Assembly: GCF_000252125.1 (NCBI RefSeq)
Contig: NZ_AHKF01000025.1
Coordinates: 1 to 64,000 of the forward strand
From: Flavobacterium frigoris PS1
Lineage (GTDB): Bacteria; Bacteroidota; Bacteroidia; Flavobacteriales; Flavobacteriaceae
Length of the DNA: 64,000 bases
Reading direction: 5' to 3'
Shown here: positions 1,756 through 13,877 of the stretch, in pieces
Position numbering within the stretch: position 1 is the stretch's first letter
Layout: each line of letters opens with the position of its first letter
The notes under the pieces: model-generated
Seen by the model: only the letters and a program-made list of their open reading frames with translations
What the model was told of the DNA's origin: nothing
Databases searched by the model: none
Made by a program: the position numbers and the translations under genes

Positions 1756-4700
1756 TTATTTTTTATAGTACTTTCTGTACTTTGGATAAGTAATGGCACC
1801 TATAAAAGAGATTGTCCCTAAAGAATACCATATCCAACTTAATGAATGTGCTTCTCCACTTGCATAAGAATGCAATCCTACCAAGTGAAAGTTTACTCCA
1901 TAATAGGTAAATAAAATAGATACAAAAGCAAACATACTCATCAGGTTAAATATCCACTTTCCTCTTAATGAAGGTACAAATCGCGCATGAATCACAAATG
2001 CATAAACCATAATACTGATCAATGCCCAAGTCTCTTTTGGATCCCATCCCCAGTAACGCCCCCAACTTTCATTAGCCCATTGTCCACCAAGGAAGTTACC
2101 AATAGTCAACATGATTAACCCTATCGTTAAGGCCATTTCATTGATATAGGTTATCTCTTGAATGTTCAAATCCATTTTTGCTTTGTTCTTTTCATTAGTG
2201 AAAAAGATTAATAATAAAGAAACAAAACCTAATATCATTCCCAGAGCGAAAGGTCCGTAACTCGCAACGATAACAGCCACGTGAATCATTAACCAATAAG
2301 AATTAAGTACAGGCTGTAAATTAGCTATTTCTGGATCAATCCAGTTCATGTATGCCGCTGATAAAATCATTGCTGCTACAAATGCAGCCGAAGCCACTGT
2401 CAGCTTTGATTTGATATCAAATGTCAAACCAAAGAACATAGTTGCCCAAGCCACATAAACAATAGCTTCGTACGCATTACTCCAAGGCGCATGACCTGAA
2501 ATAAACCAACGTGCCGCTAAAGTAAATGTATGTAAAACGAATAAAATCGTTATTACCACATGCATACTATTTATAAGAATACGCAATACCTTATTTTCTT
2601 TAAAAATTTGAAGTATTGTAAAAAACAACATCAAAATTGAAGCGAAAATATAGGCGTAAGGTAATTTTTGAAGTATATCGTACTTGTTATAAAGAATCTC
2701 CATCGTGATTTTTCTTTCACTAGGCATTACTTTACTACCAAATTTCTTTTGAAAACCATGGAGACTTTCTACTAAATCATCTGCATTTTTATAATCATTA
2801 GATACCGAAGCATTGTTTAAGGAGCCAAAATACAAAGGCAATACACTTTTTGTATAAGTAGAATCCATTCCTTTTAACCCAGCCTCACCTAATTCTAAAG
2901 AAGATACCCATTTATTATTAGGATCATTCGGAATTGGAAAAATCTTTAATATCCTTCCGCTTAATGCCGATTCCATTAGATTCACTTTCTTATCCGTTTC
3001 AATAAAATCTTTTTCAAATTGATTTGGATTAGCTGCTTTATAGGCAGCATCTAAATACGGAGACAACTTATAATTCCCTTTTTCATCAAAGAAAGCGATG
3101 AATGGAACCGTTTGGGCTTTAACATCAACACCTATTATCTTACGAATACTATCATTTCCACTTTTGATATAAATCAAAGGAACTTCAATCCATAATTGTG
3201 CATATTGAGACATTGATAAAAATACCTGATCGGGATTCATTCCCTTATAATCATTGGAATGGCTCACCTTCCTTAATAATTCAGAAGAGAAAGTATTGAT
3301 TGGTTTCATTCTTCCGCCGGCATCCTGAATAACTAATCGCCCAAATTTTGACGCATGCTCTTCGGATACTTTGAATTTATTAACCAAGGAATCCAACTGT
3401 TTTTCGGTAGGCGCAACACGAATGTGATTCCCGTTTTCAACATGATCCTCATGATTCCCATCGGCATCATGCTCATGATTGTGAACTTGTGCAAAGCCAT
3501 TAAAACTCAACAACAAAACAAAAACGGTGATCAATTTTGATTTTTTACCCTTTACCACTTCTAATTTTCTTTTTAAATCCGCAAAACGAGAATGCTTCGT
3601 AAACATAATAGACATCATCGCAAAAAACAACATGAAATAACCTGCGTAAGTAATTCCTGTACCCCAAAAATCATGGTTTACAGATAATACTGTTCCTTTT
3701 TCGTCAGGATCAAAAGAAGATTGAAAAAAGCGGTATCCTTTATAGTCTAATACATTGTTCATAAAAATTCTGGCATCAAAAGTTTCAGCACTATCTTGAA
3801 CGCTAACTTTACTTTCAAACGAAGAGTAACTTTTCTCTGTTCCAGGATATTTCTTAGCTATAAAATCATTCAGCTTTATTTTAAATGGCAAAACATAAGC
3901 TTTACTTCCGTAGAAGAAAGTATAATCAATCGCTCCTATTTTTACCGTTTGAACCTGCCCTACTTTCCCTTTTGAACCTACAACGGTAACTTCCTTTTCT
4001 TGTCCATCCGCTTTTATGCTTAAAACTAAGGCATCATCATGATTTTTAGCTTTATAATCGTTATTTGACTCGTAAGCAATTACCCCTTTTACAGCCGGAT
4101 CAGGAAATACAAAACGTTTCTCTCCAATGGAATATAGGGAACGCATCATTAAGGGTTGCACAACATCTTTAGTAACTGCGCCCTGAAGTTTGTCTGCCAT
4201 TCGCATAAAATTTCCTTCAAAGGGAGTTTGAATAGTATACTCTGTTCCTGTTGTATTTATATTGATAGCGCCTTCTGTAGGCTTATTTAAAGCAAAAAGA
4301 ACGTTGTGAATATTTTGAACCTCTCCCTCCTTCAAGAAATGTTCTTCACGACCTCCGTCACCTGCTTCTACCAACTTTAAATACAGAACCCCTTTATCAT
4401 CAGCCTTTACATACTCTTTAGCTCCCATGATATAATCTTTGTATTCAACTACGAAAGGAGTATCGGCAAATTTATCAGAAATGGAAAAATTATTATTAGT
4501 TGCAGGAGAAAGTAAAAGTGATTTCTCAAAGACTTTACGTTTCATTTCTCCTTTATATTCTCCATCAACATAAACGGTAAGGAAAGTTTTATCCGAATAA
4601 AACTGGTTCTCGGCGGCGCCTTCGCGTATTGGCATCATTCCTTCATAGCTTATATAACGGGTTACAAAAGCCCCCATAAGGATAAAAACAAAGGACAAAT

Positions 4701-11803: not shown

Positions 11804-11974
11804 ACAAGTACTCTTAATATATTTTTAACCACTTAGTATACAGAAAACTACAAACAATAAATAGTTAAAAAAAGTGTAAATTTTATAAATTTTACAAGCA
11901 ATTATATAATGTTGATAAATAAATTGTTATTATCTTTATGTAAATAATCGTTCTAAATTAAAACCAAATAAAAG

Positions 11975-12295
11975 ATGAAAAAACTTAGTTTCTATTTAAT
12001 GGTAATGGTATTATCATTAGGTGCGTTACCAACAACTATGTTCGCTGCTGAAAAAAATATTGCAGCAGCAGTTACAACCGAACCAAAAGAAATTCCTGCT
12101 GAAGTTCAAACTATGCTTAATCGCTTAGATGAAATAAAAGCAATGGACAAATCCTCTTTAAATTCTTCAGAAAGAAAAGAATTACGCAAAGAAGTTCGTG
12201 AAATTAAATCGGAATTAAGATCTACGGGAAATGGTGTTTACTTTTCTGTGGGTGCAATAATTATCATTATCCTATTATTGATTTTATTATTATAA
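11975..12295 (+). CDS. Small exported protein with C-terminal membrane anchor
   Basis: 106 residues. It has an N-terminal signal peptide (MKKLSFYLMVMVLSLG ... TTMFA). A charged helical middle follows, with PAEVQTMLNRLDEIKAMD and SSERKELRKEVREIKSEL, likely a coiled coil. The C-terminal hydrophobic helix GAIIIIILLLILLL ends the protein with no cytoplasmic tail. Function is not recognised; similar mini-proteins are frequent in Flavobacteriia. A near match to the -7 box (TATCTTTA, 11931-11938) lies 36 bases upstream. A terminator follows, so it is a single-gene unit. Confidence 0.7.
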   Translation: MKKLSFYLMVMVLSLGALPTTMFAAEKNIAAAVTTEPKEIPAEVQTMLNRLDEIKAMDKSSLNSSERKELRKEVREIKSELRSTGNGVYFSVGAIIIIILLLILLL

Positions 12296-12323: not shown

Positions 12324-12351
12324 AGAAGCGCATTTAGCGTTTCTTTTTTTT
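12324..12351 (+). terminator. Intrinsic terminator after the small membrane-anchored protein
   Basis: Stem AGAAGCGC / GCGTTTCT (one G-T pair), loop ATTTA, then eight T. Its stem sequence is nearly the same as the terminator at 12944. Confidence 0.8.
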
Positions 12352-12390
12352 GCCAAAAATTAAAACCAATTAAACGTTAAATAAACACTG

Positions 12391-12406
12391 TGGCACAGTA
12401 GTTGAA
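12391..12406 (+). promoter_or_regulatory. Sigma-54-like (-24/-12) promoter of first tandem paralogue
   Basis: TGGCACAGTAGTTGAA fits the sigma-54 layout TGGCAC-N5-TTG, with the GG and TG elements at the right spacing; the -12 GC is GA here. It lies 65 bases before the ATG. A matching site stands before the paralogue at 13326, while the rest of the two upstream regions differs. Confidence 0.6.
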
Positions 12407-12470
12407 TTGAACCATCAGGCATAGATAATATACTTGCCCATAAAATGATTTAAAGAAAAAAAAAGAAAAA

Positions 12471-12929
12471 ATGAAAACATTAAAACTCCTTGCCTTAGGA
12501 ATCGTACTTTTTGTATCTGGTTCTATGCATTCTCAAGTTTCAGTCAACGTAAACATTGGTACTCCTCCGTCATGGGGTCCAGCTGGCTACTCTAATGTAG
12601 ACTATTATTATTTGCCTGATGTTCAAGCCTATTATGATGTCAGAGCCTCACAATTTATTTATTTCGGAAGCGGAAACTGGGTAAGATCTAGATATTTACC
12701 AGGACAATACAGAAACTACGATTTATACAACGGATACAAAGTGGTGTTAAACGATTATCACGGTAAAACACCTTATACCCACTATAAACAACACAAAGTT
12801 AAATATTACAAAGGGTACAAAGGACAACCACAAAGATCCATAGGTAAAAGAAATGATAACCATAATAACTATTCTAAAAAAGGAAACGGCCACAAGAGTC
12901 ATGGAAACAATGGAAAAGGCAAACATTAA
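12471..12929 (+). CDS. Secreted Tyr/His-rich protein, tandem paralogue 1
   Basis: 152 residues. A signal peptide (MKTLKLLALGIVLFVSGSMHS, cleavage before Q) is followed by a conserved block: SVNVNIGTPPSWGPAGY, VDYYYLPDVQAYYDVRASQF, IYFGSGNWVRSRYLPGQYRN, YKVVLNDYHG. The C-terminal tail is rich in Lys, His, Gly and Asn and of low complexity. The function of this family is not known to me. The conserved block resembles small periplasmic proteins that appear next to envelope-stress genes in Flavobacteriia, but that is weak. The gene has a sigma-54-like promoter and its own terminator, so it is expressed singly. It is about 65% identical by eye to the next gene in the N-terminal 110 residues. Confidence 0.8.
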   Translation: MKTLKLLALGIVLFVSGSMHSQVSVNVNIGTPPSWGPAGYSNVDYYYLPDVQAYYDVRASQFIYFGSGNWVRSRYLPGQYRNYDLYNGYKVVLNDYHGKTPYTHYKQHKVKYYKGYKGQPQRSIGKRNDNHNNYSKKGNGHKSHGNNGKGKH

Positions 12930-12943
12930 TTCTCAAATTAAAA

Positions 12944-12975
12944 AAAGAAACGCAAATCGCGTTTCTTTTTTTTTT
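12944..12975 (+). terminator. Intrinsic terminator after paralogue 1
   Basis: Perfect 10-bp stem AAAGAAACGC / GCGTTTCTTT with loop AAATC and a run of ten T. Confidence 0.85.
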
Positions 12976-13251
12976 GCAAATAAAACTCAATTTAAATCAT
13001 GCTAAAATCAATATCGTGCAATAGCTACAATTAAGCCTCTGAAAAAAAATAACAAACAATATTATTTAACAATCGAAAAAAATAAAATTAATCCTTGTTG
13101 AGATAATACTACTCAAACTTTATTAAAAACAAACATCTGAATATTTTCTTCTGATTTTCAACTTATTACCAAACAATATTATATAAAATAAACGAAATTG
13201 TCTTACTTTCTTGTTAGGCATAAACCTAATTAAATAGAGCTAAAACCATTG
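12976..13251. other. AT-rich spacer between the tandem paralogues
   Basis: The 396-base gap between the paralogues holds the terminator at its left end and a sigma-54-like promoter at its right end. The AT-rich middle may carry an upstream activator site, but no clear dyad was identified. No ORF is visible. Confidence 0.4.
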
Positions 13252-13267
13252 TGGCACAGTTGTTGGA
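13252..13267 (+). promoter_or_regulatory. Sigma-54-like (-24/-12) promoter of second tandem paralogue
   Basis: TGGCACAGTTGTTGGA fits TGGCAC-N5-TTG at the same spacing as the site at 12391. It lies 59 bases before the ATG at 13326. Confidence 0.6.
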
Positions 13268-13325
13268 TTTAGCCATAAAGTATATACAAAAGGAATAAAA
13301 ATATAATAATAATAAAAACAGAAAC

Positions 13326-13877
13326 ATGAAAACATTAAAACTAATCGCCGTTGGAATAATTCTACTCGTATCGAGCTCTATACAAGCTCAAGTTTCAGTA
13401 AGTTTAAATATAGGAACAGCTCCATCATGGGGTCCTACAGGGTACGCAAATGTAGACTACTACTATTTACCTGATGTACAGGCCTACTATGATATTAGAG
13501 CTTCACAGTTTATCTATTTCGGACAAGGAAGATGGGTAAGATCAAGATACTTACCAAGACAATATAGAAACTATGATTTAAATCGTGGCTATAAGGTAGT
13601 ATTGAATGATTACCATGGTAACAGACCTTACGCAAATTTCCATAACGACAGAAGAACATACTATAAAGGATATAGAGGTGGAAACCAAAGAACAATTGTA
13701 CAAAGACAAGATAATCACAGATATTCTAACGACAGAAACGCTGTAAACCATAGAAAATATGATACTCGTAGATATTCCGAAAACCGTAAGTCTTCAAATA
13801 ACCATGGTAAGTATGATAACCACAGAAACAACGACCACGGAAATAAAAGAGAAAATAAAGGTCACGGGAAACACTAA
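13326..13877 (+). CDS. Secreted Tyr/His-rich protein, tandem paralogue 2
   Basis: 183 residues. It has the same plan as paralogue 1: signal peptide MKTLKLIAVGIILLVSSSIQA, then SVSLNIGTAPSWGPTGY, VDYYYLPDVQAYYDIRASQF, YFGQGRWVRSRYLPRQYRNY, YKVVLNDYHG. The C-terminal tail is longer and made of Asn/His/Arg/Tyr-rich low-complexity sequence (for example SENRKSSNNHGKYDNHRNN), strongly basic. The two copies arose by tandem duplication; the conserved core has been held while the tails diverged in length and charge. Function unknown. Single-gene unit with its own promoter and terminator. Confidence 0.8.
   Translation: MKTLKLIAVGIILLVSSSIQAQVSVSLNIGTAPSWGPTGYANVDYYYLPDVQAYYDIRASQFIYFGQGRWVRSRYLPRQYRNYDLNRGYKVVLNDYHGNRPYANFHNDRRTYYKGYRGGNQRTIVQRQDNHRYSNDRNAVNHRKYDTRRYSENRKSSNNHGKYDNHRNNDHGNKRENKGHGKH

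Follow-up and report, generated by a model that had tools for sequence, protein, structure and literature searches.

We analysed a stretch of 64,000 nucleotides from Flavobacterium frigoris PS1 (contig NZ_AHKF01000025.1, positions 1 to 64,000 of the forward strand; hereafter the window), which carries two tandem paralogous genes for exported Tyr/His-rich proteins, each preceded by a sigma-54-type −24/−12 element. Both genes are very likely transcribed from sigma-54 (RpoN) promoters during protein-folding or envelope stress, with an activator encoded elsewhere in the genome and with export of the products. The initial annotation had proposed sigma-54 control as a clue to when the proteins are made. 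Sequence comparison supports this proposal, as the site is conserved and specific to the family, its layout resembles that of chaperone sites in the same genome, and RpoN and candidate activators are encoded there; the timing of expression would thus be narrowed to protein-quality and envelope stress. The two sites and genes are as follows.

12391..12406, + strand: sigma-54-type −24/−12 site TGGCACAGTAGTTGAA before paralogue 1 (found in the sequence; conserved in relatives)
12471..12929, + strand: exported Tyr/His-rich protein, paralogue 1, 152 amino acids (aa)
13252..13267, + strand: sigma-54-type −24/−12 site TGGCACAGTTGTTGGA before paralogue 2 (found in the sequence)
13326..13877, + strand: exported Tyr/His-rich protein, paralogue 2, 183 aa

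Both 16-mers lie exactly where the initial annotation had placed them. Its spacings of 65 and 59 bases proved to be inclusive counts, the actual gap between site and ATG being 64 and 58 bases, and the first base of the site lies 80 bases (paralogue 1) and 74 bases (paralogue 2) upstream of the ATG. The predicted transcription starts would fall near 12416 for the first site and near 13277 for the second. The strict pattern TGGCACRNNNNTTGNW matched these two places and no others in the window, compared with 0.07 matches expected from dinucleotide shuffles, and 0 of 100 shuffles reached two matches; the earlier remark that nothing else nearby shows this layout therefore holds for the strict pattern. 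The looser pattern TGG-N7-TTG-N-W occurred 27 times against 21.8 expected, which is about chance, and the signal therefore rests in the full −24 element (TGGCAY, with its GG), which is present in both sites. The two genes have different upstream DNA flanking the sites, whereas the 16-base sites are nearly identical. The TGGCACAGTTGTTGGA 16-mer also precedes the third paralogue of this genome, at G000:C35:254230.

The two proteins are paralogous (69% identity across 145 residues), and both begin with a stretch that by eye resembles a signal peptide. Their Tyr content is high (12.5 and 10.9%), as is their His content (5.3 and 4.9%), and they have a Tyr-rich core and a basic tail. Neither matched Pfam or NCBIfam at E ≤ 1. 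The structure model was of middling confidence (mean predicted local distance difference test score 70.3) and contained four short strands, and with this model as query, Foldseek returned no match in the PDB at E ≤ 0.001.

The conservation of the site was evaluated at 79 family loci, taken from the best 80 of 124 contig-scan matches; among these, the named loci that matched the family gene best belonged to Flavobacterium species. A hidden Markov model (HMM) built from 42 members sorted the open reading frames (ORFs) of the contig-scan loci, 29 further genus loci (L160–L188), the window and L154 into family and control. Control ORFs were first-ATG ORFs of at least 100 aa, some of them overlapping, and their starts were unrefined, whereas family starts were HMM-refined. 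This recount was prompted by an earlier comparison, in which all 11 "control" hits were unrecognised family members. The pattern TGGCAY-N5-TTG was present within 130 bp in 77 of 142 distinct family upstream regions, at −50 to −87 in 76 of them and at −111 in one. By comparison, none of 500 other ORFs had it, and it occurred in 9 of 28,400 shuffled family upstream regions. Beyond these 77, seven regions carried ATG or CTG instead of TTG, and in five the first base was changed. Counting the first T as position 1, the free columns of the 77 copies showed A at position 7 in 71 and T at position 9 in 74, position 6 was C (59) or T (18) only, and position 15 was G in 59 and C in 1. An initial alignment of 36 rows had been selected by TGG[CT][AT]-N6-TTG, which fixed T, G, G, T, T and G by selection, and one of its rows (L081) was a chance match inside a repeat element.

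Within the genus, the family was present in 83 of 121 genomes, which overlap those of the contig scan and are not an independent sample. From 109 fetched copies, 8 were dropped for an uncertain start, leaving 101 that could be classified: 45 had the strict site, 24 had TGGCACAGTATATGAA or a close form, five had a changed first T, four had the direct-repeat element described below, and 23 had none of these. The TGGCACAGTATATGAA variant group (L179, L183–L188 and others) has A for the first T of the −12 TTG and keeps the spacing of GG and TG.

As calibration, we located the corresponding sites before the chaperone genes of the same genome: TGGCACAAAGATTGAC at −71 of dnaK, which was identified by family search, TGGCATAATTTCTGAA at −52 of groES, and TGGCAGTACTTTTGCA at −72 of grpE, the last located by reading the sequence. 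These distances are close to the −80 and −74 of the window genes, and the layout is similar. In F. psychrophilum, counterparts of dnaK, groES and grpE (as genes or operons) are among the selected promoters with a sigma-54 motif (SM4), based on mapped 5' ends, according to passages of PMC9723704, which also document sigma-54 promoters before exported proteins in the genus Flavobacterium. Across Bacteroidota, chaperone genes are enriched among predicted sigma-54 targets according to passages of PMC12316311, which also cite GrpE as sigma-54-dependent in F. psychrophilum and Bacteroides thetaiotaomicron.

The host genome (3.93 Mb in 52 contigs) contains one rpoN. Ten matches to the sigma-54 interaction domain (PF00158) were listed, four strong and six weak; three of the four strong activators have a receiver domain, which is absent from the fourth. 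One activator (L150:4350-5513), with receiver and AAA+ domains, lies two genes after what we take to be grpE-dnaJ, and no DNA-binding domain was matched in it at E ≤ 0.001. Among the other three, one follows a histidine kinase gene, one lies near genes that, from reading their sequences, are presumably lptE and groES-groEL, and one stands beside a hybrid kinase gene. Of 50 genomes of relatives, 48 gave an rpoN match, and the two negatives were both metagenome bins. A protein search of the F. frigoris genome revealed three family copies, namely the window pair and C35:253667-254164, and all three are preceded by one of the 13 genome-wide matches to TGGCAC-N5-TTGNW. Two further sites were observed in this genome. 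One of the 13 matches, the near-identical TGGCACAGTAATTGGA at G000:C33:89477, precedes a 431-aa exported-looking protein (L156:4149-5444), for which Pfam gave no match. The other, TGGCATGTAGTTTGCC (L151:6189), is sigma-54-like, and its first base lies 71 bases upstream of a gene for a 73-aa protein; this gene follows closely on an activator/kinase pair.

According to the proposed mechanism, each gene would form its own transcription unit behind a sigma-54 promoter. RNA polymerase carrying RpoN would bind at −24/−12, and one of the four activators, whose genes lie elsewhere in the genome, would open it; the trigger may be protein-folding or envelope stress. The exported proteins would then be made together with DnaK, GroES and GrpE and would probably serve as envelope protectants, in the periplasm or at the surface.

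Several observations weigh against this reading. At −12, the window sites have TTG at the correct spacing but read TTGA or TTGG, without the C of TTGC, and this C is absent in 76 of the 77 strict copies. The dnaK and groES sites also lack it, and its absence in the window may therefore not be a strong objection. The calibration sites are themselves imperfect: TTGC occurs only in grpE, whose −24 element is TGGCAG rather than TGGCAY, and in groES the TTG is replaced by CTG. None of the three site forms was present within 130 bp in 53 of the 142 family upstream regions, and 23 of the 101 genus copies, including three misread strands (L180–L182), have neither site nor repeat. The 13 genome-wide matches to TGGCAC-N5-TTGNW compare with 11 for the reversed control, which is hardly an enrichment; two other genome-wide searches with sigma-54 patterns gave 5 versus 4 and 20 versus 6. 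The gene rpoN also occurs where the family lacks the site, and co-occurrence therefore does not discriminate. A linked enhancer-binding protein, for which the initial annotation had suggested a search, was not found among the ORFs listed around the four activators, the third paralogue or the two window genes. Furthermore, no clear upstream activator site was detected in the 60 bases above the site, scored by position, or in 130 bases inspected by eye; an A/T-rich stretch 12 to 27 bases above TGG was weakly conserved, with one A at 0.92 bits.

A second promoter class, probably linked to stress, was found before the same family. The family gene of Lutibacter, Prolixibacteraceae, Paludibacter and other Bacteroidota often stands instead behind GTGTGAATtATGtAACTcTT-N5-AAaTTgTGTAAC followed by CAnCTTTGT, with the repeat halves 22 bp apart. 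This element was found at 27 of 78 family loci by expression match and at 32 of 78 by a weight matrix above 14 bits, five of the latter scoring only 15 to 20. Within 180 bp, the 142 family upstream regions comprised 77 with the sigma-54 site only, 33 with the repeat only, 32 with neither and 0 with both; with unrefined starts, the tally was 78, 33, 32 and 0. Extending the limit to 220 bp gives a single region with both, that of L064 (family gene at 3001), in which a weak repeat (18.8 bits) lies above the sigma-54 site. On the gene tree, the two promoter classes required 2 changes compared with 20 when labels were shuffled, in a tree with 20 of 81 rows unlabelled, weak deep branches and class labels taken from a looser site pattern. 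In the window, the repeat element lies before the neighbouring gene.

11874..11912, + strand: direct-repeat element, two TGTAAC-like halves 22 bp apart, before the neighbour gene (weight matrix)
11975..12295, + strand: small membrane protein, 106 aa, behind the direct-repeat element
12324..12352, + strand: terminator-like hairpin and T run, upstream of the first sigma-54-type site (by eye; a consensus terminator scan did not report it)

The element at 11874 was the best match in the window, with 20.9 bits compared with 12.4 for the next and 18.5 for the top of 20 mononucleotide shuffles. The genome pattern, composed with knowledge of this site, fits it with 0 mismatches. In Flavobacterium loci, the gene for the 106-aa membrane protein often neighbours the family gene on its upstream side, and 24 of 43 upstream regions of its homologues scored at least 14 for the repeat. 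At family loci, the repeat also precedes genes that we take from their sequences to be OmpA-like, DUF4382-like lipoprotein, CsbD-like and YtxH-like. Among control ORFs, 19 of 456 scored as high for the repeat, and 14 of these 19 were OmpA-like or DUF4382-like by reading. In the F. frigoris genome, the repeat pattern with up to three mismatches gave 25 matches compared with 1 for the reversed control, and at 20 of the 25 an ORF of at least 40 aa started within 260 bases downstream. The genes behind these copies include those for presumably UspA-like, aldehyde dehydrogenase-like and lmo0937-like proteins and for an AraC-type regulator.

The AraC-type regulator gene (within G000:C21:35000-54500, L155; found by domain search) has a 3-mismatch copy of the repeat upstream, and after it comes the gene of a hybrid sensor kinase that contains a CHASE3 domain. 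Twelve loci, each belonging to the repeat class, have a close homologue of the regulator in the vicinity of the family gene (downstream of it in 11, upstream in one), and in 10 of the 12 the regulator is followed by a kinase similar to the hybrid kinase. Based on this gene neighbourhood, the regulator probably binds the direct repeat. Our searches of open-access text gave no description of this element and its candidate regulator.

Three other explanations of the sites before the two genes were considered. The TGGCAC...TTGG element may instead serve a different regulator as its operator, the genes being transcribed with some other sigma factor; we regard this as unlikely. A direct repeat, TTGGC-N7-TTGGC, is legible in a number of copies (TTGGCA...TTGGC), and the missing −12 C and the weakly conserved A/T-rich stretch would fit such an operator; however, the second repeat half is lost in the TTGAA, TTGGA and ATGAA copies. 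Sigma-54 sites show a C/T wobble at position 6 and a fixed GG/TG spacing, and the family sites match both features. Similar sites stand before dnaK, groES and grpE, whose counterparts in a congener have sigma-54 promoters with mapped starts, according to passages of PMC9723704, and neither promoter region of the window contains an exact sigma-A box. As a candidate in its own right, a sigma-A promoter was rejected, with no exact TAnnTTTG on the + strand of either region and 15 sigma-70-like hits versus 12.4 in shuffled sequence. Chance origin of the sites was likewise rejected, by the two window matches against 0.07 expected and by the absence of the pattern from all 500 control ORFs.

That the genes are tandem paralogues would suit the view that the two sites resemble each other merely through duplication together with upstream DNA, needing no function. 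This view is hardly tenable and was rejected, since the nearly identical 16 bases stand in differing flanking DNA, and since the site persists across many genomes and before divergent paralogues but is absent from the control ORFs. It is also very unlikely that the genes remain under the direct-repeat, AraC-type promoter used in other Bacteroidota, with the sigma-54-like site being secondary. The element does occur some 500 bp upstream, where it precedes the neighbour gene, the repeat is present in 33 of the 142 family upstream regions, and L064 has a weak copy above its sigma-54 site. On the other hand, L064 is the only region in which both elements occur, and there only when the limit is extended from 180 to 220 bp, while the best repeat match of the window is at 11874, with none near the two genes. 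The hairpin at 12324..12352, read by eye between the neighbour and the first gene, would insulate the first site from the preceding gene, and comparable hairpins were seen by eye in a number of relatives. Sigma-54 control of the two genes is the preferred explanation.

Since many other Bacteroidota have the direct-repeat promoter at this family, the Flavobacterium lineage probably swapped one promoter for the other. A wider reading joins these observations into a Bacteroidota general-stress regulon, in which a hybrid sensor kinase and an AraC-type regulator would act on a tandem direct-repeat promoter before genes for CsbD-, YtxH-, OmpA- and DUF4382-like proteins and for small membrane proteins. 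The exported family would be an original member that moved to sigma-54 in Flavobacterium, and L064 would be a possible intermediate keeping both elements. We give this combined reading an even chance of being correct.

Placing an unnamed, widespread exported family in a likely Flavobacterium sigma-54 stress regulon provides a first clue to its role, together with a testable site. The analysis also exposes a second Bacteroidota promoter element with a candidate regulator and what would be a natural example of promoter exchange. The newer part consists of the probable switch between promoter classes and of the repeat element, along with the regulator proposed for it, as sigma-54 promoters before exported proteins are already known in the genus from passages of PMC9723704. 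If true, the combined reading of regulon and exchange would represent a clear case of a conserved stress protein that swapped both sigma factor and regulator.

The textbook sigma-54 promoter is TGGCACR-N4-TTGCW. The window sites share its −24 TGGCAC and the same distance to the TG of −12, whereas their −12 element is TTGA or TTGG, without the C. AraC-family regulators use direct-repeat sites about two helical turns apart, and the repeats found here likewise lie 22 bp apart above a −7-like box; the candidate regulator was assigned here from gene neighbourhood. The exported family and the contrast with a repeat promoter are not mentioned in the consulted passages on the F. psychrophilum sigma-54 (SM4) regulon, whereas the basic arrangement of one sigma-54 factor and a few activators is shared by the two species (passages of PMC9723704).
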